A stretch of 64,000 nucleotides of DNA from Arcuatula senhousia (Eukaryota; Mollusca; Bivalvia; Mytilida; Mytilidae). The notes below the pieces were generated by a model. That model did no database searches. It saw only the letters and a list, made by a program, of their open reading frames with translations, and was not told the DNA's origin. The stretch is from contig OZ020304.1 of the NCBI GenBank assembly GCA_963971305.1, forward strand, positions 16,660,103 through 16,724,102, read 5' to 3'. Position numbers and translations under genes: made by a program. Below, in pieces: positions 23,651-50,034 of this stretch (its first letter is position 1; each line of letters begins with the position of its first letter).

Positions 23651-23869
23651 GTTATGGTTCAATAAACCAAAAAATTATTACACTTAATTCTTATATATAT
23701 AAACGGATGATTTTTGAACAAGAGGAATGCAGTGTTTAGGAAAGTTTGCTACAAAATTCGGGAAACCACCTTTGATTCTTCAACAAAGACATGTACAAAA
23801 TTCCATAAAATGTACCAGCATACCTGGGCATTTGAACCAAAGAAATATTAAAGTTTGAAAACCAATGGA

Positions 23870-24066
23870 AAAGTAGCTCGAGAGAAATGGCAAGGTTCTG
23901 AAACTTTAGCCTATGAAGTGGACTTATTAGCAGTCCTGAAAGGGGTCTATTACTTTCATGACGCGCACACGAAGGTCCTCTATTCTTGCGACAAGCTGGG
24001 CTGCGGGACAGCCGCCTACTCGCCTCCCGGGTTTGAGGATCTCAAATGTACAAATAGCTTGGCTTA
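23870..24066 (+). repeat. Diverged copy of the mollusc GTGAGTGAGTTGG repeat, internal part
   Basis: ACTTTAGCCTATGAAGTGGA, CTGAAAGGGGTCTATTACTT and CGACAAGCTGGGCTGCGGG parallel the segments AATTTAGCCTATGTGGTGCA and CACAAAGGGGTCTTTTACGT of the copy at 33.4 kb, and CGACAAGCTAGGCGCTGGTG of the copy at 58.37 kb. The 70-codon frame across it is a by-product. Confidence 0.55.
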
Positions 24067-27900: not shown

Positions 27901-28130
27901 AGTTGCCGTTTCGTTATGCTGGTTGTGTCACGTAAACTTATTCCCCATGTCTTTATTATATATTTAAATAGTTTACTTAATTTGAAAAAAAATAAATGCT
28001 TGGTGTATCACCAAAAACATGTTTCATTCCACTTAAAAACGTCTCAACAGAAAGAAGCAAAGGTGTACCAAAGGGGTAATCAATATCATACAACAGTAAA
28101 GACAAAGACAAAACCGGTAGACAAGCAATG

Positions 28131-28690
28131 GTGAACAATTTGTGCCCATTGGGATACCTATTGTCTGTTGAAAAACACGTCCACCAAACTGTGCAAATAT
28201 GTTGTCGATTAGAAAGTTGAGCATTTCTATTATTTGATCTTCTGTAAATTTGTTTTTCTTGCTAGACTCTTGGATGACAAATAAAGTCATTTTATAATCG
28301 ACTACCAAATACTTGTACCTGCGTTTTCTGTTCTTTTTGATAAAGCTACGTTTATTCAACTGTGCCAAACGAGATTTTAATTGTGAATGTGTAATTGAAG
28401 TATATAATGTAGAGAAATCAAACGTTTTAATACTATGACATGATAAAAATGACTTAGAATGGAGACTTTCCATCAGTTCTTTAGAATTTTTGAGAATCCA
28501 CATTTGATTGACGCCATTTCTAGAGTAACAACAATCGAAATACTTTTGGAGGGCTGATTTTATTGCTGTCAATATTGATGTTAACAAAACTGAAAGAGGT
28601 TTAGTTGTACATTTGGATGACCCAGCAATAAATCGTTGCTTATATGGATTTTTATGTAGCTGTGGAATCCAATACAAGGATGGAACGTCA
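28131..28690 (-). pseudogene. Penelope-like reverse transcriptase, internal fragment
   Basis: Reads LYWIPQLHKNPYKQRFIAGS, continues through KTFDFSTLYTSITHSQLKSR and RSFIKKNRKRRYKYLVV, and ends at GIPMGTNCSPLL. These are the RT palm and finger segments preceding the catalytic YIDD block, which is deleted here. The frame runs on into tail sequence (residues after SPLL are not RT). The intact part has no frameshift, so this copy is younger or less decayed than PLE-1, but it cannot encode an active enzyme. Confidence 0.85.
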
Positions 28691-28794
28691 TCGTTCTTTT
28701 GTCAACAGAAATGCCAAACCACCGCGATTCTATAACGATCATGAAACTCTTGGAGATACAAATGACAACAAAGTTCCAGACAATTAAATTTGCT

Positions 28795-29437: not shown

Positions 29438-30647
29438 CAATAATAATGATAAATATTGATGATATGATCTCAGAGATCATGAATGGCTCCCAAACGACGG
29501 CCCCATGTCAACAACTGATATCTGGAATACATGCCATATCATTCAATTGAAGTAAATACAGTGGGAAATAAAATTTTATGGAGATCAGACAAAGTTCACT
29601 TTTAAAGTGGGTGGGAGTGTAGTGAAAATGGCCGCCATAGAAAATCCAGAAGTCGAATCAACATTCTGAGTGCACCATTGAATTCGGCATACCTGATTTA
29701 CCAAGATGACCCATTTTCAAGAAGATTCGACAAACTTTAATTTTTGGCTATTTTTAGAAATCAAAATGGCCGCCATTTGGAAACCGGAAGTCAGATCGAA
29801 ATTCCGATTGCTTCATTGAACTCAGCATACCTGATTTACCCACATGACCCATTTTCAAGAAGATTCGACAAACTTTAATTTTTGGCTATTTTTAGAAATC
29901 AAAATGGCTGCCATATGAAAACCGGAAGTCAAATCGAAATTCCGATTGCTTCATTGAACTCAGCATACCTGATTAACCCAGATGACCCATTTTCAAGAAG
30001 ATTCGACAAACTTTAATTTTTGGCTATTTTTAGAAATCAAAATGGCCGCCATTTGGAAACCGGAAGTCGGATCGAGATTCCGATTGCATCATTGAACTCA
30101 GCATACCTGATTTACCCAGATGACCCATTTTCAAGAAGATTCGACAAACTTTAATTTTTGGCTATTTTTAGAAATCAAAATGGCCGCCATTTGGAAACCT
30201 GAAGTCGGATCGAAATTCCGATTGCATCATTGAACTCAGCATACTTGATTTACCCAGATGACCAATTTTCGTGAAGATACGACAAACTTTAATTTTTGGT
30301 TATTTTAGAAATTTCTAGAAAATTCACATTTTTGCATTTTACGGAAAAACCGTAAATATCGCTTCCGAATTTTTTTTCGTATTTTTGTTGTACCCATCAT
30401 GCTCTACAATGATACCAAGTTTCAAAGTCCTGGCCACCTAGGTTCCAGAGATATAAGATTGTCCGAAATCTGGAACATTCCCCGTTGCCATGGAAACGGT
30501 AGCCATTTTGAAAATTTCCCATGCATTTGGCACAATTTCTCATAAGGGTCTATAATTGGGGAACATTTCATAATGTTTCGATAAACAGTTTACGAGAAAA
30601 CTTCCGGACAAAAATTTAGGGCGGAAGAAAGAATAATAATAATAATA
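29438..30647 (+). mobile_element. Array element 1, GGCTCCC family
   Basis: 5' hairpin ATGATCTC-A-GAGATCAT, then X = ATGGCTCCCAAACGA (29483-29497). The body has about five ~138-bp units with AAAATGGCCGCCATTTGG. The 3' end CTTCCGGACAAAAATTTAG leads to GGCGGAAGAAAG and (AAT)n. No own 3' hairpin module; the matching hairpin occurs at about 46715-46745 and 49995-50027. Confidence 0.75.
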
Positions 30648-31840
30648 AATATTGATGATATGATCTCAGAGATCATGAATGGCTCCCAAACGACGGCACC
30701 ATGTCGACAACTGATATCTGGAATACTACCATATCATTCAATGGAATTAAATACAGTGGGAAATCAAATTTCATTGAAATCAGACAAAGTTCACTTTTAA
30801 AGTGGGTGGGAGTGTAGTAAAAATGGCCGCCATAGAAAATCCAGAAGTCGAATCAACATTCTGAGTGCACCATTGAATTCGGCATACCTGATTTACCCAG
30901 ATAACCTATTCTCGTGAGCATTTGACTAACTTTAATTTTCGAACTATTTTTAGAAATAAAAATGGCCGCCAATAGGAAACCGGAAGTCGGATCGAAATTC
31001 CGATTGCATCATTGAACTTAGCATACCTGATTTACCCAGATGACCCATTTTCAAGAAGATTCGACAAACTTTAGTTTTTGGCTATTTTTAGAAATCAAAA
31101 TGGCCGCCATTTGGAAACCGGAAGTCAGATCGAAATTCCAATTGCATTATTGAATTCAGCATACCTGATTTACCCAGATGACCCATTTTCAAGAAGATTC
31201 GACAAACTTTAGTTTCTGGCTATTTTTAGAAATCAAAATGGCCGCCATTTGGGAACCGGAAGTCGGATCGAAATTCCGATTGCATCATTGAACTCAGCAT
31301 ACTTGATTTACCCAGATGACCCATTTTCAAGAAGATTCGACAAATTTTAGTTTTTGGCTATTTTTAGAAATCAAAATGGCCGCCATTTGAAAACCGGAAG
31401 TCGGATCCAAATTCCGATTGCAAATTTGAATTCAGCATACCTGATTTACCCAGATGACCAATTTTCGTGAAGATACGACAAACTTTAATTTTTGGTAATT
31501 TTAGAAATTTCTAGAAAATTCACATTTTTGCATTTTACGGAAAAACCGTAAATATCGCTTCAGAATTTTTTTTCGTATTTTTGTTGTACCCATCATGCTC
31601 TACAATCATACCAAGTTTCAAAGTCCTGGCCACCTAGGTTCCAGAGATATAAGATTGTCCGAAATCTGGAACATTCCCCGTTGCCATGGAAACGGTAGCC
31701 ATTTTGAAAATTTCCCACACATTTGGCACAATTTCTCATAAGGGTCTATACTTGGGGAACATTTCATAATGTTTTGATAAACAGTTTACGAGAAAACTTC
31801 CGGACAAAAATTTAGGGCGGAAGAAAGAATAATAATAATA
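30648..31840 (+). mobile_element. Array element 2, GGCTCCC family
   Basis: Near-duplicate of element 1 with the same hairpin, X at 30679-30693, the same ~138-bp units and the same 3' end. Tandem arrangement and high similarity point to local duplication rather than two independent arrivals. Confidence 0.75.
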
Positions 31841-33065
31841 ACTAGTTCTAATTGTGATCGCAAGCGAGTCACAAAAATGTCCCCTCACGTACCCCTCTTT
31901 GTCAATGTCTCTTAGCATTTGAGATAACTTATTATATCCAATTTTCATCAAAATAGGAGTAAGTTTAATTTTGGCGGGAAATGGCCAAAATTAAACTTAC
32001 TCCTATTTTGATGAAAATTGGATATAATAAGTTATCTCAAATGCTAAGAGACGCTAAAAAAAATTGATGTCAAAAATCAGTTCGCCATACCACTTTTACC
32101 TTATATACCAATTTCCATCAAAATCAGAGTAACTTTGATTTTGGCGGGAAACGGCGGCCATTTTGAAAATGGCCGACGAAATAAAAATTTCTATGTCAAA
32201 TATCAACTCGCCATACCACTATTACTTTATATACCAATTTTCATCAAAATCAGAGTAACTTTAATTTTGGCGGGAAACGGCGGCCATTTTGAAAATGGCC
32301 GACGATAAAAAAAATTTTGATGTCAAAAATCAACTCGCCAAACAACTATTACCTTATATACCAATTTTCATCAAAATCGGAGTAAGTTTAATTTTTGGCG
32401 GGAAACGGCGGCCATTTTGAAAATGGCCAACGATAAAAAAATTTTGATGTTAAAAATCAACTCGCCATGCCACTATTACCTTATATACCAATTTTCATCA
32501 AAATTGGAGCAAGTTTAATTTTTGGCGGGAAAATGGCGGCCATTTTAAAAATGGCCGCCAAAATTTTTTTTCGATACCAAAAATGAACTCGGCATACCAC
32601 TATTACCTTGTAAACCAATTTTCATTAAGAAATAACAAAGTTAAGAATTTTTACATTACTATTACAAAATATATTGTTCCAAGAAAGATAACTCAATTTG
32701 ACAAAAAAATTAAATTTCGATTTTTTGCAAAATTTTGAGAACCCTAAGTCTGATTTTCAAAATTTTTTTTTTAAATGAAAGGTATCGAAAGTCTACACTT
32801 ACCCCATAAAGGAATTGTTGTTACTCCTGCCGGATCAGAAATGCTAGGTAAAATTCAACTTCGGTTTCGAGGAGCCATTTTGAGGCCCTTTTTTGACCTA
32901 TAAGGGGTCGTTCGATTTCGACGAAAAATACAAAAAGCACAATCTCCCATTCCATACTCTTGATATATGAAGTTTCAGCTTCCTACCTTAAAAGATGTCG
33001 AAAAAATGAGGTGGACAAGTTCACGATCCAGAATACCGAGAAAAATAATAATAATAATAATAATA
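31841..33065 (+). mobile_element. Array element 3, TGTCCCC family, carrying a giant palindrome
   Basis: Start ACTAGTTCTAATTGTGATCG, 5' hairpin TGTGATCGC/GCGAGTCACA, X = ATGTCCCC at 31877. The first body unit is replaced by an inverted copy (31984-32052). Later ~120-bp units follow the TTTTCATCAAAATCGGAGTA and GGCGGGAAACGGCGGCCATT pattern. The last ~700 bp match element 5 almost exactly. Confidence 0.75.
31907..32052. repeat. Perfect 69-bp inverted repeat with 8-nt loop
   Basis: 31907-31975 and 31984-32052 are exact reverse complements; the loop is GGGAAATG. The sister element at 44662 has the ordinary direct arrangement here (GGCGGGAAATGGCGGCCATT), so the right arm is a new inverted copy of the left arm. 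The return junction shares GAC with the original GACGCTAAAA, which indicates a templated strand switch. Confidence 0.95.
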
Positions 33066-33984
33066 ACTAGGTATAATTGTGTTGGGATGCCAACACACAA
33101 GTCGCCCAAAATCGCCTATGATAGAGTTCCATTCAAATCAGTGCTTCAAAATAAGTCTAGAAATAAAATTTCGTTGAAATCAGACAAAGTTGACGTTTTA
33201 AGTGAGTGAGTTGGTGTTTTACGCCCGTGCAACGCTATATAGGTTATTTACAGGCGATGAACATGAAAAGGATGATAAAATGAACATGAAATGATGATGA
33301 TGAATGAAATATGGGGATGGGGTGGGACACAAAGGACCGGTAAATTTTGAAGAACCACAGGAAAAGGGGAGAGATGGGTAGGGGCGGAAAATTTAGCCTA
33401 TGTGGTGCACTACTGGGCGGTCCACAAAGGGGTCTTTTACGTGCATGAAGCGTGGCACTCTCCACACACGTTGGCCCACTATGGTCGGCGGTCAGGGTTT
33501 CCGTATTATAGACCTGACAACCCCCGCGGACGAGGGCTACCCTATTCAGCCACCTAGGGTACACACTTGGTCGCTCTGTGAGTTGACGTTTTAAGGGGGG
33601 CGGGTGTAGTAAAATGGCCGCCATTTTGAAATCGTAAGTCGGATTTCATATCCGGTCGCAGATTTGAGCTCAGCATACCCGCTTTACCCAGATGACCAAT
33701 TTTCAAGACGATCCGATGAAAAAAAAATTTCCGCCCACTTTTTCCGATGGCCGCCATTTTGAATCGGCGGCCATCTTGAAAATTTTAAAAGTGCATTACA
33801 CAACTTTGAGTGACCCACTATCCAATCTCACAAGTGTTATTCAATTTCCTTGGACCGTTTTCTTGTATTAGGGAGGACAAATTCTCGATAAAGAATCAGA
33901 AGAATAATAATAAGAATAATAATAATAATAAGAAACGGTGCAAAAACAATAAGTCTCCCAAACTTTGTTTTGGGCGACTTAATA
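33066..33984 (+). mobile_element. Array element 4, GTCGCCC family, with 3' hairpin and nested insertion
   Basis: 5' hairpin GTGTTGG-GATG-CCAACAC, X = AAGTCGCCCAAAA (33099-33111). Interrupted by a 378-bp repeat (33203-33580). It ends with (AAT)n, AAGAAACGGTGCAAAAACAA and a hairpin whose right arm TTTTGGGCGACTT is the exact complement of X, while the left arm (AAGTCTCCC) has drifted. Confidence 0.75.
33203..33580. mobile_element. 378-bp GTGAGTGAGTTGG mollusc repeat with 15-bp target duplication
   Basis: Flanked by AGTTGACGTTTTAAG at 33188-33202 and 33581-33595. The sister element at 44.3 kb has one copy of this site (AAAGTTGACGTTTTTGGGGG), confirming the insertion. It contains AATTTAGCCTATGTGGTGCA, GGCGGTCCACAAAGGGGTC and ACACACTTGGTCGCTCTGTG. 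A target duplication of 15 bp suggests target-primed reverse transcription. No poly(A) tail and no coding capacity. Confidence 0.85.
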
Positions 33985-35171
33985 ACTAGTTCTAATTGTG
34001 ATCGCAAGCGAGTCACATATATGTCCCCTCACGTACCCCTCTTTGTCAATATGTCTCTTGGCATTTGAGATCACTTAATATACCCAATATTCATCAAAAT
34101 AGGAGAAAGTTAAATTTTGGCGGGAAACGACGGCCATTTTGGAAATGGCCGACGATTAAAAATTTTAATGTCAAAAATCGAATCGCCATACCACTATTAC
34201 CTTATATACCAATTTTCATCAAAATCGGAGTAACTTTAAATTTTGGCGGGAAACGGCGGCCATTTTGGAAATGGCTGACGATGAAAAATTTTTAATGTCA
34301 AAAATCAACTTGCCACACCACTATTACCTTATATACCAATTTTCATCAAAATCGGAGTAACTTTAAATTTTGGCGGGAAACGGCGGCCATTTTGAAAATG
34401 GCCGACGATAAAAAAAATTTTGATGTCAAAAATCAACTCGCCAAACAACTATTACCTTATATACCAATTTTCATCAAAATCGGAGTAAGTTTAATTTTTG
34501 GCGGGAAACGGCGGCCATTTTGAAAATGGCCAACGATAAAAAAATTTTGATGTTAAAAATCAACTCGCCATGCCACTATTACCTTATATACCAATTTTCA
34601 TCAAAATTGGAGCAAGTTTAATTTTTGGCGGGAAAATGGCGGCCATTTTAAAAATGGCCGCCAAAATTTTTTTTCGATACCAAAAATGAACTCGGCATAC
34701 CACTATTACCTTGTAAACCAATTTTCATTAAGAAATAACAAAGTTAAGAATTTTTACATTACTATTACAAAATATATTGTTCCAAGAAAGATAACTCAAT
34801 TTGACAAAAAAATTAAATTTCGATTTTTTGCAAAATTTTGAGAACCCTAAGTCTGATTTTCAAAATTTTTTTTTTAAATGAAAGGTATCAAAAGTCTACA
34901 CTTACCCCATAAAGGAATTGTTGTTACTCCTGCCGGATCAGAAATGCTAGGTAAAATTCAACTTCGGTTTCGAGGAGCCATTTTGAGGCCCTTTTTTGAC
35001 CTATAAGGGGTCGTTCGATTTCGACGAAAAATACAAAAAGCACAATCTCCCATTCCATACTCTTGATATATGAAGTTTCAGCTTCCTACCTTAAAAGATG
35101 TCGAAAAAATGAGGTGGACAAGTTCACGATCCAGAATACCGAGAAAAATAATAATAATAATAATAATAATA
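33985..35171 (+). mobile_element. Array element 5, TGTCCCC family, mosaic
   Basis: X = ATGTCCCC follows the TGTGATCGC/GCGAGTCACA hairpin. The 5' ~330 bp are nearly identical to element 6, while the 3' ~750 bp are nearly identical to element 3. This indicates recombination or unequal exchange among neighbours. It ends in (AAT)n without a hairpin module. Confidence 0.7.
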
Positions 35172-36227
35172 ACTAGTTCTAATTGTGATCGCAAGCGAGT
35201 CACATATATGTCCCCTCACGTACCCCTCTTTGTCAATATGTCTCTTGGCATTTGAGATCACTTAATATACCCAATATTCATCAAAATAGGAGAAAGTTAA
35301 ATTTTGGCGGGAAACGACGGCCATTTTGGAAATGGCCGACGATTAAAAATTTTAATGTCAAAAATCGAATCGCCATACCACTATTACCTTATATACCAAT
35401 TTTCATCAAAATCGGAGTAACTTTAAATTTTGGCGGGAAACGGCGGCCATTTTGGAAATGGCTGACGATGAAAAATTTTTAATGTCATAAATCAACTTGC
35501 CACACCACTATTACCTTATATACCAATTTTCATCAAAATCGGAGTAACTTTAAATTTTGGCGGGAAACGGCAGCCATTTTGAAAATGGCCGACGATAAAA
35601 AAATTTTGATGTCAAAAATCAAATCAGCATACCACTATTACCTTAAATACCAATTTTCATCAAAATCGGAGTAACTTTAAATATTGGCGGGAAATGGCGG
35701 CCATTTTAGCCGCCATTTTGAAAATGGCCGCCAAAAAAAATTTTCGATTCCAAAAATGAACTCGGCATACCACTATTACCTTGTAAACCAATTTTCTTTA
35801 AGAAATAACAAAGTCGAGAATTTTTACATTACTATTACAAAATATAAAGTACAAAGGAAGATAACTCAATCTTACAAAAAAATTAATTTTCGATTTTTTG
35901 CAAAATTTTGAAAACGGTAAGTCCGATTTTCAAAATTTTTTTTTTAAATGAAAGGTATTAAATAGCCGCACTTAACCTATTAAGGAATTATTCCTACCCC
36001 TGCCGGATCAGAAATGCCAGGTAAAAGTTCAACTTCGGTTTCGAGGAGCCATTTTGAGGCCCTTTTTTTACCTATAAGGCGTCGTTCAATTTTGTCGAAA
36101 AATACAAAATGCACAATCTCCCATTCCATACTCTTGATATGTGAAGTTTCAGCTTCCTACCTTAAAAGATGTCGAAAAAATGAGGTGGACAAGTTCACGG
36201 TCCAGAATACCGAGAAAAATAATAATA
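35172..36227 (+). mobile_element. Array element 6, TGTCCCC family
   Basis: Same 5' hairpin and X. About four ~120-bp units, each with a palindromic GGCCATTTTGAAAATGGCC core, then the family 3' region (CCTGCCGGATCAGAAATGCC, GGTTTCGAGGAGCCATTTTG) and (AAT)n. Confidence 0.7.
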
Positions 36228-37829
36228 ACTAGTTCTAATTGTGATCGCAAGCGAGTCACATATATGTCCCCTCACGTACCCCTCTTTGTCAATATGTCTC
36301 TTGGCATTTGAGATCACTTAATATTACCAATATTCATCAAAATAGGAGTAAGTTTAATTTTGGCGGGAAACGGCGGCCATTTTCAAAATGGCCGACTACA
36401 AATAAATTTCAATGTTAAAAATCAACTCGCCATACCACTATTACTTTGAATACCAATTTTCATCAAAATCTGAGTTACTTTAATTTTGGCGGGAAATGGC
36501 CGACAATGAAAATTTTTTAATGTCAAAAATCAACTCGCCATACCACTATAACCTTATGTACCAATTTTCATCAAAATCGGAGTAACTTTAATTTTGGCGG
36601 GAAACGGCAGCCATTTTGAAAATGGTCAACGATAAAAAAATTTTGATGTCAAAAATCAACTCGCCATACCACTTTTACCTTGAATACCAATTTTCATCAA
36701 AATCTGAGTAACTTTAATTTTTGCGGGAAACGGCGGCCATTTTGGAAATGGCCGACGATGAAAAATTTTTAATGTCAAAAATCAACTCGCCATACCACTA
36801 TAACCTTATGTAAGAATTTTCATCAAATTCGGAGTAACTTTAAATTTGGCGGGAAACGGCAGCCATTTTGAAAATGGTCGACGATAAAAAAATTTTGATG
36901 TCAAAAATCAACTCGCCATACCACTTTTACCTTGAATACCAATTTTCATCAAAATCTGAGTAACTTTAATTTTTGCGGGAAACGGCGGCCATTTTGGAAA
37001 TGGCCGACGATGAAAAATTTTTAATGTCAAAAATCAACTCGCCATACCACTATAACCTTATGTAAGAGATGAAAAATTTTTAATGTCAAAAATCAACTCG
37101 CCATACCACTATAACCTTATGTAAGAATTTTCATCAAATTCGGAGTAACTTTAAATTTTGGCGGGAAACGGCAGCCATTTTGAAAATGGCTGACGAAAAA
37201 TAATTTTTAATGTCAAAAATCAACTCGCCATACCACTATTACCTTATATACCAATTTTCATAAAAATTGGAGCAAGTTTAAGTTTTGGCGGGAAAACGGC
37301 GGCCATTTTAGCCGCCATTTTGAAAATGGCCGCCAAAAATTTTTTTCGATACCAAAAATGAACTCGGCATACCACTATTACCTTGTAAACCGATTTTCAT
37401 TAAGAAATAACAAGGTTGAGAATTTTTACTTTACTATTACAAAATATATTGTAACAAGAAAGATAACTCAATTTGACAAAAAAAATTAAATTTCGATTTT
37501 TTGCAAAATTTTGAGAACCGTAAGTCCGATTTTCAAAATTCTTTTTTTAAATGAAAGCTATTAAAAGTCTACACTTACCCTTTAAATGAATTTTTCCTAC
37601 CCCTGCCGGATCAGAAATGCCAGGTAAAAATCAACTTCGGTTTCGAGGAGCCATTTTGAGGCCCTTTTTTGACCTATAAGGGGTCATTCGATTTCGGCGA
37701 AAAATACAAAAAGCACAATTTCCCATTCCATACTCTTGATTTATGAAGTTTCAGCTTCCTACCTTAAAAGATGTTGAAAAAATGAGGTGGACAAGTTCAC
37801 GGTCCAGAATACCGAGAAAAATAATAATA
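36228..37829 (+). mobile_element. Array element 7, TGTCCCC family
   Basis: Longer copy with about eight units. A short internal duplication near 37010-37130 repeats AATTTTTAATGTCAAAAATC and its neighbourhood. Unit number varies between elements, as expected for unequal exchange. Confidence 0.7.
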
Positions 37830-39310
37830 ACTAGTTCTAATTGTGATCGCAAGCGAGTCACAAAAATGTCCCCTCACGTACCCCTCTTTGACAATATTTC
37901 TGGCTTTTGTGGGAACCCTGTTTAAGCAATGACGCCCTTATCATTCCATTGAAGCACCCTTTTTACAAGCATTGGTAGCGTACTTGTAAACTATTGTAGT
38001 GACTAGCGAGCATAACTACCGCTCTCGTCCTCTACAATGGAGCCACTCTTCAATGAAATGCTAAAAACGTTACGGAGAAGCTTTTGGTTGACATCCATAT
38101 GAGATATTATTCTCCCTTAATCTCATATAGTCGAGAAGAATCACACAGTCGCATCCAAAAGCTGATGCATCGGACCATAAACAAAATTTGATGCTAAAAA
38201 TGAACTCCCCATACCACAATTACCCTGTATATTAATTTTCATTAAAATCGGAGTAAGTTTAATTTTGGCGGGAAACAGTGGCCATTTTGAAAATGGCCGA
38301 CCATAAATAAATTTCAATGTCAAAAATCAACTCGCCATACCACTGTTACCTTATATACGAGTTTTCATGAAAATCAGAGTAACTTTAATTTTGGCGGGAA
38401 ACGGCGGCCATTTAGTAAAATGGCCGACGATAAAAAAAATTCATTCCGAAAATCAACTCAGCATACCACTATTACCTCAAATACCGATTTTCATCAAAAT
38501 TGGTGTAACTTTAATTTTGGCGGGAAACGGTGGCCATTTTGAAAATGGCCGACTATAAAAAAAATTCGATGTCAAAAATCATCTCGCCATACCACTATTA
38601 CCTTATATACCAATTTTCGTCAAAATCGGAGTAACTTTAATTTTGGCGGGAAATGGCGGCCATTTTGAAAATGGTCGACGATAGAAAAATTTTGATGTCA
38701 AAAATCATCTCGCCATACCACTATTACCTTCTATACCAATTTTCATCAAAATCGGAGCAAGTTTAAATTTTGGCGGGAAATTTTAGCCGCCATTTTGAAA
38801 ATGGCCGCCAAAAAAAATTTTCGATACCAAAAATGAACTCGGCATACCACTATTACCTTGTAAACCAATTTTCATTAAGAAATAACAAAATTGAGAATTT
38901 TTTTCATTAATATCACAAAATATATGGTACAAAGAAAGATAACTCAATCTTACAAAAAAAATAATTTTCGATTTTTTGCAAAATTTTGAAAACGGTAAGT
39001 CCGATTTTCAAAATTTTTTTTTTAAATGAAAGGTATTGTATATCCGCACTTAACCTATAAGGGAATTTTTCCTACCCCTGCCGGATCAGAAATGCCAGGA
39101 AAAATTCAACTTCGGTTTCGAGGAGCCATTTTGAGGCCCCTTTTTTACCTATATGGGGTCGTTCGATTTCGGCGAAAAATACAAAAAGCACAATCTCCCA
39201 TTCCATACTCTTGATTTATGAATTTTTAGCTTCCTACCTTAAAAGATGTCGAAAAAATGAGGTGGACAAGTTCACGATCCAGAATACCGAGAAAAATAAT
39301 AATAATAATA
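37830..39310 (+). mobile_element. Array element 8, TGTCCCC family, long-leader subtype
   Basis: Shares the first ~60 bases and the 3' region with elements 3, 5, 6 and 7. It has a distinct ~300-bp leader after X (TTTCTGGCTTTTGTGGGAAC, GCATTGGTAGCGTACTTGTA, ATCTCATATAGTCGAGAAG) that is also found in elements 10 and 11. The leader has a small ATATGAGAT/ATCTCATAT hairpin. Confidence 0.7.
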
Positions 39311-39880
39311 ACTAGTGCTGACTGTGTTGGGGATGCCCAACACAAAAATATCTCCCAAACGTACGCATATTGTCATTCTTGCATAAACTTTGACATCGCA
39401 TCCTAAATCGTCATCATTTGAAACCCCTATATACCAAATTTTGTCGAAATCGTAGCATTTTGACAGTTTTCCCATTTTTGGGCCCGATAAATCGCATTTT
39501 CGTGAATAACTCGAAAACCGTAAATATCGCTTCAATTTTTTTTTTCATATTATTAAAGAGCTCCTTTTGCTCTACTAGCCTACAAAATTTCAGAACCCTG
39601 CGCACCTAGGTAACCGAGATATCGCAATGTCCTATATTATGACCTTTCCCTGTTTCCATGGAAACGGTGGCCATTTTGAAAATTTTGAAAATTGCATGCA
39701 CACCTCTGGGACCCATTCTACCACCATACAAAATTTCAGAAAGATCCATTCAGTAGTTTTATGAGATGTGGTGCAGACACGTTCATGGTCGGAAGAAGAA
39801 AAAAAAAGAATAATAATAATAATAAGAAACAGAGTAAAAACAATATATCTCCCAAACATAGTGTTTGGGAGATATAATAA
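39311..39880 (+). mobile_element. Array element 9, TCTCCCAAAC family, covarying variant
   Basis: 5' hairpin GTGTTGGG-GATG-CCCAACAC. X = ATATCTCCCAAAC (39348-39360), with A where the family has G. Its own 3' hairpin (39844-39858 paired with 39862-39876, 3-nt loop) carries the matching change, GTTTGGGAGATAT. It is the cleanest single-element example of X and hairpin changing together. Confidence 0.8.
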
Positions 39881-39890
39881 TAATAATAAT

Positions 39891-40013
39891 AAGAAACCGA
39901 GCAAAAACAATATGTCCCCGACACTTCGTGTTCGGGGACATAATAATAATAATAATAATAATAAGAAACCGAGCAAAAACAATATGTCCCCGACACTTCG
40001 TGTTCGGGGACAT
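39891..40013 (+). repeat. Two TGTCCCC-type 3' hairpin modules
   Basis: Identical 51-nt modules at 39891-39941 and 39963-40013: AAGAAACCGAGCAAAAACAA, T, then a hairpin with arms ATGTCCCCGA/TCGGGGACAT and a CAC-TTC-GTG tip. They sit after element 9's own hairpin, separated by (AAT)n, although element 9 belongs to another family. Confidence 0.9.
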
Positions 40014-40023
40014 AATAATAATA

Positions 40024-41262
40024 ACTAGTTCTAATTGTGATCGCAAGCGAGTCACATACATGTCCCCTCACGTACCCCTCTTTGACAATATTTCTGGCTT
40101 TTGTGGGAACCCTGTTTAAGCAATGACGCCCTTATCATTCCATTGAAGCACCCTTTTTACAAGCATTGGTAGCGTACTTGTAAACTATTGTAGTGACTAG
40201 CGAGCATAACTACCGCTCTCGTCCTCTACAATGGAGCCACTCTTCAATGAAATGCTAAAAACGTTACGGAGAAGCTTTTGGTTGACATCCATATGAGATA
40301 TTATTCTCCCTTAATCTCATATAGTCGAGAAGTCACACAGTCGCATCCAAAAGCTGTTGCATCGGACCATAAACAAAATTTGATGCTAAAAATGAACTCC
40401 CCATACCACAATTACCCTCTATATTAATTTTCATTAAAATCGGAGCAAGTTTAATTTTGGCGGGAAACGGCGGCCATTTTGAAAATGGCCGACGATATAA
40501 AAAAATTAATGTCAAAAATCAACTCGCAGTACCACTATTACCTTGAATTCCAATTTTCATGAAAATCTGAGTAACTTTAATTTTGGCGGGAAACGGCGGC
40601 CATTTTGAAAATGGTCGACGATCAAAAAAATTCGACGTCAAAAATCAACTCGCCATACCACTATTACCTTATATACCAATTTTCATCAAAATCGGAGCAA
40701 GTTTAAATTTTGGCGGGAAAATGGCAGCCATTTTAGCCGCCATTTTGAAAATGGCCGTCAAAAAAAATTTTCGACTCCAAAAATGAACTCGGCATACCAC
40801 TATTACCTTGTAAACCAATTTTCATTAAGAAATGACAAAGTTGAGATTTTTTTTCATTACTATTACAAAATATATTGAACAAAGAAAGATAACTCAATCT
40901 TACAAAAAAATTAATTTTCGATTTTTTGCAAAATTTTGAAAACGGTAAGTCCGATTTTCAAAATTTTTTTTTTTTAAATGAAAGGTATTGAAAGTCTTCA
41001 CTTACCATATAAAGGAATTTGTCCTACCCCTGCCGGATCAGAAATGCCAGGAAAAATTCAACTTCGGTTTCGAGGAGCCATTTTGAGGCCCTTTTTTGAC
41101 CTATAAGGGGTCGTTCGATTTCGACGAAAAATACAAAAAGCACAATCTCCCATTCCATACTCTTGATTTATGAAGTTTCAGCTTCCTACCTTAAACGATG
41201 TCGAAAAAATGAGGTGGACAAGTTCACGGTCCAGAATACCGAGAAAAATAATAATAATAATA
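40024..41262 (+). mobile_element. Array element 10, TGTCCCC family, long-leader subtype
   Basis: Leader as in element 8, two or three body units, family 3' region, (AAT)n. No 3' hairpin module. Very similar to the first part of element 11. Confidence 0.7.
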
Positions 41263-42611
41263 ACTAGTTCTAATTGTGATCGCAAGCGAGTCACATACAT
41301 GTCCCCTCACGTACCCCTCTTTGACAATGTTTCTGGCTTTTGTGGGAACCCTGTTTAAGCAATGACGCCCTTATCATTCCATTGAAGCACCCTTTTTACA
41401 AGCATTGGTAGCGTACTTGTAAACTATTGTAGTGACTAGCGAGCATAACTACCGCTCTCGTCCTCTACAATGGAGCCACTCTTCAATGAAATGCTAAAAA
41501 CGTTACGGAGAAGCTTTTGGTTGACATCCATATGAGATATTATTCTCCCTTAATCTCATATAGTCGAGAAGAGTCACACAGTCGCATCCAAAAGCTGTTG
41601 CATCGGACCATAAACAAAATTTGATGCTAAAAATCAACTCCCCATACCACAATTACCCTGTATATTAATTTTCATTAAAATCGGAGCAAGTTTAATTTTG
41701 GCGGGAAACGGCGGCCATTTTGAAAATGGCCTACGATATAAAAAAATTAATGTCAAAAATCAACTCGCAATACCACTATTACCTTGAATACCAATTTTCA
41801 TCAAAATCTGAGTAACTTTAATTTTGGCGGGAAACGGCGGCCATTTTGAAAATGGTTGACGATAAATAAATTTCAATGTCAAAAATCAAATCCCCATACC
41901 ACTATTACCTAATATACCAGTTTTCATCAAAATCGGAGTAACTTTAATTTTGGCGGGAAACTGCGGCCATTTTGAAAATGGCCGACGATAAAAAAAATTC
42001 GATGTCAAAAATCAACTCGCCATACCACTATTACCTTATATACCAATTTTCATCAAAAGCGGAGCAAGTTTAAATTTTTGCGGGAAAATGGCAGCCATTT
42101 TAGCCGCCATTTTGAAAATGGCCGTCAAAAAAATTTTTCGACTCCAAAAATGAACTCGGCATACCACTATTACCTTGTAAACCAATTTTCATTAAGAAAT
42201 AACAAAGTTGAGATTTTTTTTCATTACTATTACAAAATATATTGAACAAAGAAAGATAACTCAATCTTACAAAAAAATTAATTTTCGATTTTTTGCAAAA
42301 TTTTGAAAACGGTAAGTCCGATTTTCAAAATTTTTTTTTTAAATGAAAGGTATTGAAAGTCTACACTTACCATATAAAGGAATTTGTCCTACCCCTGCCG
42401 GATCTGAAATGCCAGGAAAAATTCAACTTCGGTTTCGAGGAGCCATTTTGAGGCCCTTTTTTTACCTATAAGGGGTCGTTCGATTTCGACGAAAAATACA
42501 AAAAGCACAATCTCCCATTCCATACTCTTGATTTATGAAGTTTCAGCTTCCTACCTTAAAAGATGTCGAAAAAATGAGGTGGACAAGTTCACGGTCCAGA
42601 ATACCGAGAAA

Positions 42612-42643
<32 letters not shown>

Positions 42644-42822
42644 GAAACCGAGCAAAAACAATATGTCCCCGACACTTCGTGTTCGGGGACATAATAATAA
42701 TAATAATAAGAAACCGAGCAAAAACAATATGTCCCCGACACTTCGTGTTCGGGGACATAATAATAATAATAATAAGAAACCGAGCAAAAACAATATGTCC
42801 CCGACACTTCGTGTTCGGGGAC

Positions 42823-42853
<31 letters not shown>

Positions 42854-42906
42854 GAAACCGAGCAAAAACAATATGTCCCCGACACTTCGTGTTCGGGGAC
42901 ATAATA
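41263..42906 (+). mobile_element. Array element 11, TGTCCCC family, with four 3' hairpin modules
   Basis: Leader as in elements 8 and 10, four to five body units, then (AAT)n and four hairpin modules of its own family. The module right arm (GGGGACAT) is complementary to X (ATGTCCCC). Confidence 0.75.
42642..42902 (+). repeat. Four identical 51-nt hairpin modules in (AAT)n
   Basis: Modules at 42642-42692, 42708-42758, 42774-42824 and 42852-42902 are identical, while the (AAT)n linkers are 15, 15 and 27 nt. The linker length varies but the module does not, as expected if modules multiply by slippage or exchange within (AAT)n. Confidence 0.95.
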
Positions 42907-44208
42907 ACTAGGTATAATTGTGATCGCAAAGCGAGTCACAAATGTCCCCTCACGTACCCCTCTTAGTTATAATCCAGCTTATTCAAGAATAATTTTCTGT
43001 TCCCCATCCATTATTAAGCTTAGATATCAATTCTAGTTGAAATCGGAGCAAGTAGAATTTATACCGGAAATGGCGGCCATTTTGAATTTTTCGACATTTT
43101 CGCCTTCACGCCTAAATTCGCCATCCTTTACAACCCCTAGATATCGATTTTTGTTAAAATCATAGCAAGATGATTTTTTACCGGAAGTTGCGGCCATTTT
43201 GAATTTTTTGACATTTTCGACTTCACGTCTCAATTCACCATCCTTTAAAACCTCCAGATATCAATTTTCGTTAACATTTGAGTGAGTTGAATTTTAACCG
43301 GAAGTGGCGGCCATTTTGAATTTTTCGACATTTTTCACTTCACGTCTCAATTCGCCATCCTTTAATACCCCTAGAAATCAATTTTCATCAAAATCGGAGT
43401 AAGTTGAAATTTAACCGGAAGAGGCGGCCATTTTGAAAATGGCAGCAGAATAAAAATTTTCAATACCAGAAATGAACTCAGCATACCCCAATTACCTGAA
43501 ATACAAATTTTCATTTAAAAATAGTAAAGTTTAAAATTTTTCCCAAAATCCATGGAAGTGGCGACCATTTTGAAAAAAACGGCCAATAAAAAATTCCGGT
43601 ACCAGAAATGAACTCGCCATACTCCAATAACCTTAAATACAAATTTTCATCAAATTCCGAGCAAGTTTCAATTTTGGCGGGAAACAGTCGGCCATTTTGA
43701 AAATGGCCAACCATTAATTTTTTCAAGATCAAGAATCATCTTGGCGCATACACCAATACCTGTTTACAGGTCTTCAGCGATACTTAATTTATAAAATGTT
43801 ACTTACAAATACTGATTATTTTATACAATTTCATATAATGTGGTATTCAATTATCTCCCCTTTTTTCGAATTTTTGCAAAATTTTGAAAACAGTACGTCC
43901 GATTTTCAAAATTCTTTTTTTGAAAGATACCTCTTGTACATACCTATTTTATATATAAACAGATTTTCAATAATTCAGCCGGTTTATAAATGCCGTTAAA
44001 AATAAAACTTTGATTTTGAGGAGCCATTTTCAGGCCCCTATTAACCCTAAAAGGGGGCGTTTTATTTTGACGAAAAAATCTGATTACACAATTTCACACT
44101 CCATACTCTTGATATATGAAGTTTCAGCTTCCTACCTTCAAAGATGTTCTTTAAATCGAGCGGACAAGTTCACACTACAGAATACTAAGAATAATAATAA
44201 TAAAAAAA
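42907..44208 (+). mobile_element. Array element 12, TGTCCCC family start with a different body
   Basis: Start ACTAGGTATAATTGTGATCG and X ATGTCCCCTCACGTACC as in the family. The body then changes to ~118-bp units with CGGAAGTGGCGGCCATTTTG and AATTTTTCGACATTTTC. The 3' region is a diverged version of the family end (GAGGAGCCATTTTCAGGCCC). The 5' hairpin carries an extra A (GCAAAGCG). Confidence 0.7.
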
Positions 44209-44661
44209 ACTAGTGCTGATTGTGTTGGGATGCCAACACATAAGTCGCCCAAAATCGCCTTGGATAGTATTCCATTCAAAATAAGTCTAGAAATCAAATT
44301 TCGTTGAAATCGGACAAAGTTGACGTTTTTGGGGGGCGGGTGTGGTAAAACGGCCGCCATTTTAAAATGGCGATGTTCGCGTAATTTTTTTTTCGGCATG
44401 TTGCTCAAAAAGGATCACTCTACCAGTGTACCAATTTTCATTAAAATCCATCCACCCATCTCCGAGATCTGAGAGGGGCCCAAAAATCTTAAACGGCGGC
44501 CATTTTGAAAATGGCGGCCATCTTGAAAATTTCAAAAGTGGATTGCACACCTCTGAGTGACCCTCCACCCATCTCAGCAGGTTTTATCTTGATTGGTCAA
44601 AGCATTTTCAAAAAATGTGGCGGACAAGTTCATGATTAAGGTAAGGAAAAGAATAATAATA
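44209..44661 (+). mobile_element. Array element 13, GTCGCCC family, short
   Basis: 5' hairpin GTGTTGG-GATG-CCAACAC, X = AAGTCGCCCAAAA (44242-44254). It retains the uninterrupted site used by the nested repeat in element 4. It ends GGACAAGTTCATGATTAAGG and (AAT)n with no hairpin module. Confidence 0.75.
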
Positions 44662-45981
44662 ACTAGTTCTAATTGTGATCGCAAGCGAGTCACAAAAATG
44701 TCCCCTCACGTACCCCTCTTTGTCAATGTCTCTTAGCATTTGAGATAACTTATTATATCCAATTTTCATCAGAATAGGAGTAAGTTAAATTTTGGCGGGA
44801 AATGGCGGCCATTTTGAAAATGGCCGACGCTAAAAAAAATTTGATGTCAAAAATAAGTTCGCCATACCACTTTTACCTTATATACCAATTTTCATCAAAA
44901 TCAGAGTAACTTTGATTTTGGCGGGAAACGGCGGCCATTTTGAAAATGGCCGACGAAATAAAAATTTCAATGTCAAAAATCAACTCGCCATACCACTATT
45001 ACCTTATATACCAATTTTCATCAAAATCAGAGTAACTTTAATTTTGGCGGGAAACGGCGGCCATTTTGAAAATGGCCGACGATAAAAAAATTTTGATGTC
45101 AAAAATCAACTCGCCATACCACTATTACCTTCTATACCAATTTTCATCAAAATTGGAGAAATTTTAATTTCTGGCGGTAACGGCGGCCATTTTGAAAATG
45201 GCCGACGATAAAAAAAATTTTGATGTCAAAAATCAACTCGCCATACCACTTTTACCTTATACACCAATTTTCATCAAAATCAGAGTAACTTTAATTTTGG
45301 CGGGAAACGGCGGCCATTTTGAAAATGGCGGACGATAAAAAAATTTTGATGTCAAAAATCAACTAGCCATACCACTATTACCTTATACACCAATTTTCAT
45401 AAAAATTGGAGCAAGTTTAAGTTTTGGCGGGAAAATGGCGGCCATTTTAGCCGCCATTTTAAAAATGGCCGCCAAAATTTTTTTTTTGATACCAAAAATG
45501 AACTCGGCATACCACTATTACCTTGTAAACCAATTTTCATTAAGAAATAACAAAGTTAAGAATTTTTACATTACTATTACAAAATATATTGTTCCAAGAA
45601 AGATAACTCAATTTGACAAAAAAATTAAATTTCGATTTTTTGCAAAATTTTGAGAACCGTAAGTCCGATTTTCAAAATTCTTTTTTTAAATGAAAGGTAT
45701 TAAAAGTCTACACTTACCCTTTAAAGGAATTTTTCCTACCCCTGCCGGATCAGAAATGCCAGGTAGAAATTCAACTTCGGTTTCGAGGAGCCATTTTGAG
45801 GCCCTTTTTTGACCTATAAGGGGTCGTTTGATTTCGACGAAAAATACAAAAAGCACAATCTCCCATTCCATACTCTTGATATATGAAGATTCAGCTTCCT
45901 ACCTTAAAAGATGTCGAAAAAATGAGGTGGACAAGTTCACGGTCCAGAATACCGAGAAAAATAATAATAATAATAATAATA
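44662..45981 (+). mobile_element. Array element 14, TGTCCCC family
   Basis: Closest relative of element 3, without its palindrome: it shows the ancestral direct unit after GTCTCTTAGCATTTGAG. About six ~120-bp units, family 3' region, (AAT)n. Confidence 0.75.
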
Positions 45982-46746
45982 ACTAGTGCTGACTGTGTTG
46001 GGGATGCCCAACACAAAAATGTCTCCCAAACGAATGAATTTTTGATAGTGTATTATTATTCACCATCCTTTAAAACCCCTAGATACAAAATATTGTTAAA
46101 ATCGAAGCATTTTTGCAATTTTTGCTTTTTCGGTGGCGGCCATTTTGAAAATGGCGGCCATTTTGAATTTTTTTATTTTAAGTATCAAGTCTACTCATAA
46201 CCCTCTACTAGCATACCAAATTTCATTAAAATCCATCCAGTAGTTTCCGAGATAATTTTAGGGTACCCTTTTGCCGTGGCGGCCATTTTGAAAATGGCGG
46301 CCATCTTGAAAATTTCGAAGTGCCTGTGCACACCTCCAATAACCAATCTACCATCATACAAAGTTTCGTGCAATTCCATTTTGTCGTTTTCAAAAAACCT
46401 TGCGGACAGTTTCATGTCCGGAAGAAAGAAGAAAAAAAAGAATAATAATAATAATAAGAAACAGAGTAAAAGCAATATGTCTCCCAACACATAGTGTTTG
46501 GGAGACATAATAAGAAACCGAGCAAAAACAATATGTCCCCGACACTTCGTGTTCGGGGACATAATAATAATAAGAAACGGTGCAAAAACAATAAGTCTCC
46601 CAAACTTTGTTTTGGGCGACTTAATAATAATAAGAAACCGAGCAAAAACAATATGTCCCCGACACTTCGTGTTCGGGGACATAATAATAATAATAAGAAA
46701 CCGAGCAAAAACAATATGTCTCCACAAACTTCGTTTGGGAGCCATA
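45982..46746 (+). mobile_element. Array element 15, TCTCCCAAAC family, with five mixed 3' modules
   Basis: 5' hairpin GTGTTGGG-GATG-CCCAACAC, X = ATGTCTCCCAAAC (46019-46031). The first 3' hairpin (about 46477-46508) has a right arm complementary to X. It is followed in order by modules of the TGTCCCC, GTCGCCC, TGTCCCC and GGCTCCC families. The body has GGCGGCCATTTTGAAAATGG palindromes. Confidence 0.8.
46455..46746 (+). repeat. Chain of five 3' hairpin modules from four families
   Basis: Each module starts AAGAAAC.G.G.AAAA.CAAT and ends with its family hairpin: TCTCCC (about 46457), TCCCC (46511), GTCGCCC (46572), TCCCC (46632), GGCTCCC (46696). Linkers are 0 to 4 AAT units. The final module is followed directly by AACTAG and element 16. 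Confidence 0.9.
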
Positions 46747-47729
46747 ACTAGGTATGATTGTGTTTGGATGCAAACACGAATGTCTCCCAAACAAACTCCC
46801 ATTGCCACTATTCTCTTCAGCAGGTCAAAAAACCCTTAAATATCAAATTTCATGTAAATCGGAGTACTTTGAAATTTTGGCGGCCATCTTGGATTCAAAA
46901 TGGCCGCCATTGTCAAATTTTAATTTTAGTCATAGAATGTTACTCGCAACATCATAATCTATCAGTATACCAATTTTCATCATAATCAGACCACTTTGAA
47001 ATTTTGGCGGCCATTTTGGATTCAAAATGGCCGCCATTGTCAAATTCTAATTTTACTTTAAGAATATTTCTTGCAACATCATAATCTATCAGTATACCAA
47101 TTTTCATCATAATATGACCACTTTGAAATTTTGGCGGCCATTTTGAATCCAAAATGGCCGCCATCGTCAAATTTTAATTTTAGTTATAGAATATTTCTCG
47201 CAACATCATAATCTATCAGTATTCAAATTTTTATCATTTTCAGACCACTTTGAAATTTTGGCGGCCATCTTGGATTCAAAATGGCCGCCATCGTCAAATT
47301 TTAATTTTAGTTATATGAATATTACTCGCAACATCATAATCTATCAGTATACCAATTTTCATCATAATCAAAACACTTCGAATTTTCGGACCAAAAAAAA
47401 TCACATTTTTGTAAATAACGCGCAAACTGTAAATATCGCTTCAAAATTTTTTTTCGTATTATTAAAGACCATCTTTTGCTCTATTCACCCACAAAATTTC
47501 AGAACCCTGAGCACCTAGGTTACCGAGATATCGCAATGTCCTATATAATGACCTTTTCCTATTTTCGCGCAAACGGCGGCCATTTTGAAAATTTTAAAAG
47601 TCGTTTGCAAAACTTCAGGTTGACCTTAACATATTCCCAAAGTTTCATATTGATTGAGCTTTGCATCTCTGAGAAAACGCGCGGACAAAGTAGCACGGAA
47701 AGAATAAAAAAGAAAGAAGAAGAATAAGA
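46747..47729 (+). mobile_element. Array element 16, TCTCCCAAAC family, second subtype
   Basis: 5' hairpin GTGTTTG-GATG-CAAACAC, a compensatory variant of the GTGTTGG hairpin. X = ATGTCTCCCAAAC (46780-46792). The body has four ~123-bp units with GGCGGCCAT and AAAATGGCCGCCAT. It ends GCGCGGACAAAGTAGCACGG and an A/G-rich tail instead of pure (AAT)n. Confidence 0.7.
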
Positions 47730-48826
47730 ACTAGATTTAAATGCCATTTCAAGAAATAGCAGATGTCACTCCACTTTGTGTGTGAAGTTTATTAAGTACA
47801 TGTTATAAGCTCTTTGAATTACGATATGTCATCATGACCTTCACCTATGTTCAAGCAAAAATTTTCCATGAGTCATCATTATGATAGATTTATAAATAGG
47901 AATTACTCAATGAATGGTATATTAATAGAAATTACTGCAGCAGGATGACACATTTTGACAGAAAATCAATACAAACTTGTCATATTTAATCTAAGGGACT
48001 TTAAAAGTTTTATAAGCTCTTCAATGGATTATATTATGTCATCATGACCTTTACCTAAATAGAAATTACTGCATGTTGACAGAAAATCAATACAAACTTG
48101 TCTTTATAAATTACAATATGTCATCATTACCTTTACCTTTGTATTACTCAATGATAATTTTATTAATAGAAATAATTGTATCAGGATGAGGCATGTTGAC
48201 AGAAAATCAATACAAACCTAGCATGTTTTCAGTCAATTTTAAACCTTTCAATAAACCTACAATATGTCATCATGACCTTAACCTTTGTCTTAACAAAATT
48301 TTCCATGAGTCATCCTAATGATATGTTTATAAATAGATATGATGCTATCTTGACAGAAAATCAATACTAACTTGGCATTTTGCCAGTCAATGTTAATCCT
48401 AACGGGAAAACAGAAAATCTTTAATTGGCGATTATTTGAAAATGCCTGCTTCGATCAACTTAAAAAAAAAATTGATAAAACTTTAAATTATAGTCTAAGC
48501 ATACTTAAAATTTCAAAACATTTAATCAAGTGGTTTTATCAAAAAGCTTTGGACAAAACTCAATATTTACCTGTAGCAGACGACGCATGTTAACTGAGAA
48601 AATCAATACCAACTTGGCTTTCTGCCAGCCAATGTTAAACCTATGGGAATTTTTAAATTTTGAAATCGATATAATTTACAAATGGCTGCTTTGATTGACT
48701 AAAAAAATAAATTTGGTATAAATTCAAATAATAGTCTAATTACATTTAAAATTTCAAAACAATTGATCAAGCCGTTTCCTCAAAAATCCCTGGACAAAAT
48801 TCATTGGAAGGAGAATAATAATAATA
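47730..48826 (+). mobile_element. Array element 17, TGTCACTCC family
   Basis: 5' hairpin TGCCATTTC-AA-GAAATAGCA (one mismatch), X = ATGTCACTCCAC (47763-47774). The body has loose repeats of TTGACAGAAAATCAATACAA and AATATGTCATCATGACCTT. The end TGGACAAAATTCATTGGAAG is followed by GAGAATAATAAT. No 3' module. Confidence 0.7.
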
Positions 48827-49776
48827 ACTAGATATAAATGCCATTTCAAGAAATAGCACATGTCACTCCATTTTGTGTGTAAAGTTTATCAAGTACATGT
48901 TATAAGCTCATTGAATTATTATATGTCACCATGACATTTACCTTTGATCAAGCAAAATTTTTTCACAAGATTTATAATTAAAAATTACTCAATGAAAGGT
49001 CTATAAATAGAAAGTACTGCAGCAGGATGACACATGTTGACAGAAAATCAATACAAACTTGTCATGTTAATAGTTTTATAAGCTCTTCAATGAATTACAA
49101 AATGTCATCATGACCTCTTCCTTTGTCCTAACAAAATTGTCCATGAGTCATCTTAATGATGTTTATAAATAGAAATTACTCAATCTTGACAAAAAATCAA
49201 TACAAACTTGTCTTTACAAATTACAATATGTCATCATGACCTTTACCTTTGTCCTATCAAAATTTTCCATGAGTCATCATAATGATATGTTTATAAATAG
49301 AAATGACTGAATCTTGACAGAAAATCAATACTAACTTGGCATATTGCCAGTCAATGTTAATCCTATGGGGAAAACAGAAAATCTTTAATTGGCGATAATT
49401 TGAAAATGCCTGCTTCGATCAACTTAAAAAAAAATTTGATAAAACTTTAAATTATAGTCTTAGCATACTGGAAATTTCAAAACATTTAATCAAAACGTTT
49501 TTTCAAAAAGCTTTGGACAAAACTCATTATTTACCTGTAGCAGACGACGCATGTTAACTGAGAAAATCAATACCAACTTGGCTTTCTGCCAGCCAATGTT
49601 AAACCTATGGGAATTTTTAAATTTTAAAATCGATTTAATTTAAAAATGGCTGCTTTGATTGACTAAAAAAATAAATTTGATATAAATTCAAATGATTGTC
49701 TAATTATATTTAAATTTTCAAAACATTTGATCAAGCGATTTCCTCAAAAATCCCTGGACAAAATTCATTGGAAGGA

Positions 49777-49812
<36 letters not shown>

Positions 49813-50034
49813 GAAGAAACATAGAATAACAACATGTCACATCCACGATGTGGAGTGACATAATAAGAAGAAACATAGAATAACAACATGTCACATCCAC
49901 GATGTGGAGTGACATAATAAGAAACCGTACAAAAACAATATGTCTCCCAAAACTTTGTTTGGGAGACATAATAATAAGAAACCGAGCAAAAACAATATGT
50001 CTCCACAAACTTCGTTTGGGAGCCATAATAATAA
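48827..50034 (+). mobile_element. Array element 18, TGTCACTCC family, with four 3' modules
   Basis: Tandem relative of element 17; X = ATGTCACTCCA (48860-48870). It ends with two modules of its own family, whose hairpin right arm TGTGGAGTGACAT is complementary to X as seen in element 17. One TCTCCCAAAC module and one GGCTCCC module follow. The array stops at (AAT)3 before TCTCTTTCGTTC. Confidence 0.75.
49811..50027 (+). repeat. Chain of four 3' hairpin modules from three families
   Basis: Two TGTCAC modules begin AAGAAGAAACATAGAATAAC and differ from the AAGAAACCGAGC type in their lead, yet have the same layout. They are followed by a TCTCCC module (about 49918-49970) and a GGCTCCC module (49977-50027). 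Confidence 0.9.

Follow-up and report, generated by a model that had tools for sequence, protein, structure and literature searches.

How can the two ends of a repeat family match one another when the ends of other families lie between them? This question is raised by a 64,000-nucleotide (nt) stretch of DNA from the bivalve Arcuatula senhousia (contig OZ020304.1, positions 16,660,103 to 16,724,102; hereafter the window), in which an array of non-coding repeats chained by AAT tracts occupies 20,597 bases (~20.6 kb; 29438..50034, outer AAT tracts included). A sequence-only reading of the window had described five repeat families in which a motif, X, next to the hairpin at one end is the reverse complement of one arm of the hairpin at the other end. 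Our analysis makes it highly probable that the array consists of 17 nested non-autonomous rolling-circle transposons built on the Helentron/Helitron2 (HINE) plan, up to seven deep and in a single orientation, together with one recombination product. The case is read from the DNA sequence itself and consists of the anatomy of the elements, the matching of their ends, the bracket-like order of those ends, empty sites in AAT phase, the single orientation and a mosaic unit related to two copies, A1 and A3.

Anatomy and orientation of the elements

Scored by motif, the array contains 18 three-prime (3') ends, 16 with CTAG after AA and two of a D type, and 17 five-prime (5') hairpin modules, all on one strand. 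Searching the opposite strand revealed neither D starts nor CTAG starts preceded by an AAT tract, and no main-type module within three substitutions; the F-type module was sought on the plus strand only. The elements are read on the minus strand, so that the "3' hairpin" of the sequence-only reading is the 5' end and its "5' hairpin" is the 3' end. Its choice of Helentron-type elements as the nearest plan, with their asymmetric terminal inverted repeats, was in the right neighbourhood, but the strand was reversed. An extra AACTAG at 45361, within a body and without a following hairpin by eye, was left out of the count.

From 5' to 3', an element consists of a terminal repeat, a loop and an inner arm that together form a hairpin, a conserved core (ATTGTTTTTGCTCGGTTTCTT or similar), an (ATT)n tract, a TGTCC block (TGTCT in family C'), the body, an inverted subterminal copy of the terminal repeat, a second hairpin and the 3' end. 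On the element strand the 5' ends read (A)TGTCCCC, (A)AGTCGCC and similar, with no 5' TC. The 3' repeat starts 32-36 nt inside the 3' end in all 18 cases, and a hairpin lies, by eye, ~8-12 nt ahead of that end, which is CTAG in 16 of 18, followed in most copies by TTATT (minus strand). When folded as DNA, the 5' ends of families A, B, C, D and F gave z scores of -3.5 to -6.5, and the 3' ends of these families all contained a hairpin (z -0.8 to -4.3). The modules occur in AAT-joined runs of up to four units of 66-78 bp each, and the eight A modules are identical to one another. Tandem repeats of 117-138 bp are found in many bodies, compared with ~241 bp units in the bodies of F1 (48355-48803) and F2 (49319-49769).

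That no protein is encoded here, as the sequence-only reading held, agrees with our Pfam scan of all 27 stop-free array frames of at least 90 codons, none of which reached a curated cut-off. One frame gave a sub-threshold match to P53_tetramer (20.6 bits against a cut-off of 20.7), which was taken as chance.

Matching of the two ends

All five X/arm pairs named in the sequence-only reading are present in the array, with coordinates correct to within ~15 bases, and X is the reverse complement, over 8-16 nt, of the terminal arm of the hairpin at the facing end. The number of families, however, rises from five to seven: a sixth sequence type, C', in which ATATCTCCCAAAC pairs with GTTTGGGAGATAT, had not been listed, and the ATGTCTCCCAAAC type comprises two families, C and E, which differ in their hairpins and core motifs. 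Next to the facing hairpin, the terminal arm is matched exactly over at most 15 nt in family D, 8 in A, 13 in each of B, C' and C, 16 in E and 12 in F. HINEs are recognized by matching subterminal inverted repeats (subTIRs) of ~11-15 bp, and six of the seven families have exact matches of 12-16 nt, A having just 8 nt.

That X agrees with the arm better within families than between them was borne out in this array, with a mean agreement per 12 nt of 11.71 within families (n=7) versus 8.85 between them (n=40). Taking one representative of each of the seven families, 82 of 84 letters agreed within families, a score reached by 2 of the 5040 ways of assigning arms to families; by inference, one of these is the true assignment and the other exchanges C with E, whose X is the same. 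Changes at one end are mirrored at the other at 6 of the 12 positions (2, 3, 4, 6, 8 and 12).

The further claim, that X resembles the terminal rather than the inner arm of a hairpin with unequal arms, held in five of the seven families (D, B, C, E and F), but A and C' are uninformative, both of their arms being equal to X along its whole length; in E the arm difference falls only past nucleotide 12. In three families, D, B and F, X and the inner arm diverge within 12 nt and the distant match is retained, a pattern suggesting that the distant match is under more constraint than the match to the inner arm. The distant match may reflect base pairing or the binding of a single protein domain, and the sequence fits both. 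Family specificity, which had been called unexplained by the Helentron plan, is part of that plan in the available text of PMC4067079, where identical subTIRs of at least 11 bp define Helentron families.

Order of the ends and nesting

Along the array the ends occur in the order D D A B b A A A A C c a a A A a a a a A B A E e a b a d E F F f f e d, in which capitals denote 3' ends and small letters 5' modules, typed by the first 8 nt of X; C' is written here as C, and both C and E as E. The 3' ends and 5' modules number 2 and 2 in D, B and F, 1 and 1 in C', 2 and 2 in C and E together, and 9 and 8 in A. Last-in-first-out pairing, blind to type, joined like ends in 16 of 17 cases; three null models, each shuffled 200,000 times, gave means of 4.1-5.1 and a maximum of 13. 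When pairs had to be of one type and not cross, as many as 17 of 17 modules could be paired (at most 14 when each null was shuffled 1500 times). At a threshold of at least 11 of 12 matched letters, under which the A pairs go uncounted because they score 10/12, last-in-first-out pairing gave 8 of 17 pairs and first-in-first-out pairing 2 of 17. The bracket test was designed post hoc, the order having first been noticed by eye.

The surplus 3' end in family A is best assigned to A2 (33986..35172), which has no 5' module of its own. Its first 375 nt are 99-100% like A3, A1 being 77-93% like it there; at positions 376-450 both A1 and A3 are 97-99% like A2; and past 450, A1 is 99-100% like it (95% in the final window, which contains the AAT tract), against 13-97% for A3. 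This mosaic is as expected of a product of unequal crossing-over between A1 and A3, which would give a 3' end without a 5' module. With A2 set aside, the pairing is 17 of 17 with a depth of 7, which none of 300,000 shuffles per null (three nulls) matched, and the exact chance of 17 of 17 is 1.8e-9 under shuffled module labels.

Peeled lengths, that is, element lengths with nested insertions removed, range from 513 to 1674 bp over the 17 elements, all on the minus strand. D1, the outermost (29450..50026; 3' end 29450, 5' module 49976-50026; peeled 1256 bp), encloses two elements at depth 2, D2 (30646..46745; 3' end 30646, module 46695-46745; peeled 1265) and E (46748..49969; module 49919-49969; peeled 1037). 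Once peeled, D1 and D2, whose ends are 20.6 and 16.1 kb apart, are 95.1% identical over 1255 nt with no gap above 20, and none of the aligned same-family pairs showed variable 5' truncation. Inside D2, at depth 3, lie A1 (31842..42902; 3' end 31842, module 42852-42902 once A2 is set aside; peeled 1309) and A8 (42908..46682; module 46632-46682; peeled 1362), the latter with a diverged body. A1 holds B1 (33067..33980; 913 bp) and A3 (35173..42824; module 42774-42824; peeled 1134) at depth 4. Within A3, at depth 5, are A4 (36229..40013; module 39963-40013; peeled 1674) and A6 (40025..42758; module 42708-42758; peeled 1305); A4 contains A5 (37831..39941; module 39891-39941; peeled 1547; depth 6) and, innermost at depth 7, C' (39312..39875; module 39824-39875; 563 bp), and A6 contains A7 (41264..42692; module 42642-42692; 1428 bp; depth 6). 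A8 encloses B2 (44210..46622; module 46572-46622; peeled 513; depth 4), A9 (44663..46562; module 46512-46562; peeled 1374; depth 5) and C (45983..46508; module 46456-46508; 525 bp; depth 6). E encloses F1 (47731..49915; module 49868-49915; peeled 1151; depth 3) and F2 (48828..49861; module 49814-49861; 1033 bp; depth 4).

Private substitutions in family A (12 in A3, 10 in A4, 10 in A5, 2 in A6, 2 in A9, 1 in A7, and 0 in A1 and A2) were not taken to give an age order, since the near-identity of A1 and A2 (1 difference in 459) confounds the count and A5, at depth 6, is by this count not younger than A3 or A4.

Two copies show further peculiarities. The 3' part of A1 contains a fold-back inverted repeat (31898-31975 / 31984-32061) whose 78-nt arms are 95% complementary and 8 nt apart; it looks like a template-switch mutation, and A9, related to A1, lacks it by eye. 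B1 carries an unrelated insert of ~393 bp (33190-33597), absent from B2 and flanked by copies of a 15-nt repeat, AGTTGACGTTTTAAG, which look like its target duplication. Relatives of this insert lie in the window at 57767-58321 and 6694-6780, with a weaker one at 23849-23965.

The AAT tract as target

An AAT tract adjoins the body end in all 18 cases and is internal to the elements, with the module core on one side and, 22-40 nt off on the body side, GGACA (17 of 18) or AGACA (C'). Together these tracts make up 546 of the 20,597 array bases, yet they contain the 16 nested insertions, 14 in clean tracts and those of B2 and F1 in altered ones; D1 is itself placed in an AAT tract of the surrounding DNA. 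When the flanks of each pair were joined, the AAT phase was unbroken in 14 of 17. HINEs insert at TT in T-rich DNA and do not duplicate their target. Here the target on the element strand is an ATT tract with no apparent duplication, in which insertion at T^T and at A^T look alike. Because each element carries (ATT)n between its 5' module and its body, every insertion would bring a fresh target. The AAT chaining, which the sequence-only reading had regarded as unexplained, is accounted for by nested insertion into the microsatellite of each element, as indicated by the bracket order, the joined flanks and the A2 mosaic.

A proposed mechanism

The elements would be moved by an autonomous Rep/helicase encoded elsewhere in the genome, which would nick at the 5' end and then peel off or copy a single strand as far as the 3' end with the matching repeat. 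This strand would be inserted one way round into a T-rich, single-stranded (ATT)n target, so that the stack would grow inward with the latest arrival innermost. The matched repeats may let the transposase couple the 5' and 3' ends of one family; in the single-stranded form, the 5' repeat could pair with the inner arm or with the 3' copy. The switch suggested earlier, in which either the adjacent arm or the far end serves as partner of the terminal arm, is possible on physical grounds, and the idea would extend to every element built on this plan. A switch acting in RNA was rejected, since the data are silent on transcription and the ends are already accounted for by the transposon plan.

In all 17 pairs the same type stands at both ends, despite many chances for hybrids. 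We tentatively suggest that the self-carried target and the repeat pair might act as an address, whereby transfer from one 5' end would skip the 3' ends of other families and stop at its own, even 20 kb off. If so, nested families could share one site without forming hybrids. To our knowledge, there is no settled account of how the Helitron2/Helentron transposase connects a 5' end with the correct 3' end, and a nest with six end sequence types, strict order and mirrored single-base changes is a natural data set for that question. The nest also records the relative order in which 17 elements arrived at a single locus, points to strand-specific insertion and illustrates how satellite-bearing non-coding elements can accumulate in a microsatellite.

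Alternative explanations

Several other origins would also produce chained repeats. Were the hairpin modules a separate microsatellite-borne repeat, spread by slippage and unequal crossing-over and unrelated to the bodies, which the sequence-only reading had named as the case that would overturn it, the AAT-joined module runs and the identity of the eight A modules would follow naturally, and at least one unequal crossing-over event did occur (A2). The module types, however, agree with the body types in number and bracket order, and X at the body end mirrors the module arm down to single bases, which makes this origin very improbable. Retrotransposons that target TAA repeats exist, Dong among them, and AAT tracts both terminate and surround the bodies; against retroelements ending in an AAT tail stand the fixed, matched pair of ends in every one of the 17 elements, the lack of variable 5' truncation noted above and a fixed module beyond the AAT tract, which leave that origin little room. 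Rolling-circle concatemers deserve mention because replication past a 3' terminator yields head-to-tail multimers, several A bodies do stand head to tail, and published tandem Helitron clusters have been ascribed to terminator bypass (PMC4067079 and PMC7492417, both available in part). Such concatemers would place a 5' module beside its own body or lack modules altogether, whereas here the modules are stacked on the far side in last-in-first-out order and in matching numbers, and the families alternate; we therefore give concatemers scarcely any weight.

A closer competitor, unlikely but less so than the preceding three, is that these are canonical Helitrons (Helitron1) with acquired inverted repeats rather than Helentron/Helitron2 derivatives. 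In its favour, judged by the Helitron1 definition quoted in PMC5148889, are the CTAG end in 16 of 18, the hairpin shortly upstream and a target readable as A^T. Canonical Helitrons end in CTRR with a hairpin 10-12 nt before the end, a pattern followed here only in part, CTAG being absent from the two D elements. However, there is no 5' TC, and Helitron1 should have no terminal inverted repeats, whereas inverted repeats of 8-16 nt occur in all seven families; asymmetric terminal inverted repeats with hairpins at both ends are marks of Helitron2 in the same source. The boundary between Helitron1 and Helentrons is soft, because the Phytophthora proto-Helentron combines a 5' TT with a CTAG 3' end and A^T insertion (PMC4067079).

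The Helentron/Helitron2 nest has its own difficulties. Family A, the commonest, matches exactly over 8 nt only (10/12), F2 has one mismatch in 12, which weakens the end matching, and both D elements are without the CTAG end. The 3' hairpins of D and F are weak, since 37 and 34 of 200 shuffles, respectively, fold as well. In three of the 17 joined flanks the AAT is imperfect, with a run of A in B2, a tract containing AAG in F1 and a GAT unit in D1. Pairings inside the A runs are uncheckable, all eight A modules being identical, and the end order balances on removal of any single one of A1-A8, so that only its mosaic sequence singles out A2. Finally, a HINE should have an autonomous partner with the same ends that encodes a Rep/helicase, plus an endonuclease in the case of Helentrons; no autonomous partner, transposase or Rep/helicase domain was recognized among the 27 frames of the array.

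Related sequences and neighbouring features

A search of bacterial and archaeal genomes for the 5' core pattern returned 24 stretches, of which 23 look like chance by their flanks. In the remaining one (L010), a contig filed under a Bathymodiolus septemdierum symbiont, the 5' core follows AAT repeats, and modules chained by AAT lie within L010:1-120, carrying this 5' core and, just ahead of it, what by eye is a second type of hairpin, ATTACATCAC...GTGATGTAAT; this is probably host DNA within a bacterial assembly. In viral contigs four patterns gave no match, and a fifth gave 15 stretches, which in the flanks inspected contain neither AAT tracts nor the hairpins of this array.

Outside the array, a frame at 3715-4095 of the window contains a TNF-family domain (PF00229; E 3.6e-08, above the cut-off) together with a sub-threshold C1q match; taken with L010, this frame suggests a bivalve source. 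The frames at 19810-20187 and 27980-28701, which by eye have the string RNAQLSNRQHICTVWW in common, are presumably retroelement fragments; scanning of three frames in these regions gave no Pfam match at 0.001.

Comparison with known systems

Lepidopteran Helitron-like elements reportedly lie in (GAAA)n microsatellites, going by the title of a 2010 report by Coates, from which we draw nothing about nesting. The closest likeness is to HINE/DINE-1 elements and the oyster Cg_HINE, for which the available parts of PMC4067079 and PMC7492417 describe a 5' subTIR with a complementary arm, a microsatellite, central tandem repeats, a 3' subTIR and a 3' palindrome. The elements of this array share that order, as well as family-specific repeats, a T-rich target and the lack of a visible target duplication. 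They differ in their CTAG 3' end and in their internal (ATT)n, which equals the target, whereas the internal microsatellites of oyster HINEs are mostly of 4-base units such as GTCY and their target is T-rich (PMC7492417). Deep ordered nesting is likewise not described for HINEs in the same parts of these two papers. Helitron2 elements such as FoHeli of Fusarium oxysporum also have asymmetric terminal inverted repeats, with hairpins at both termini in some subgroups; the accessible text of PMC5148889 discusses self-insertion and nested composites of Helitron2, and reports for FoHeli one nested case and short repeated 5' termini, compared with 16 nested insertions in order here. MuTAnT elements (PMC4486113, in part) are Mutator-like plant elements of another superfamily and have in common a preference for a microsatellite target, in their case TA. 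The 5' core strings did not occur in the paper texts searched, and the open-licence literature, as represented mostly by titles and the beginnings of abstracts, yielded no account of a deep nest in strict order built through the elements' own target-like microsatellite. The elements belong to a known kind, for which matching end tags have been described before; it is the deep and orderly nesting that is unusual.

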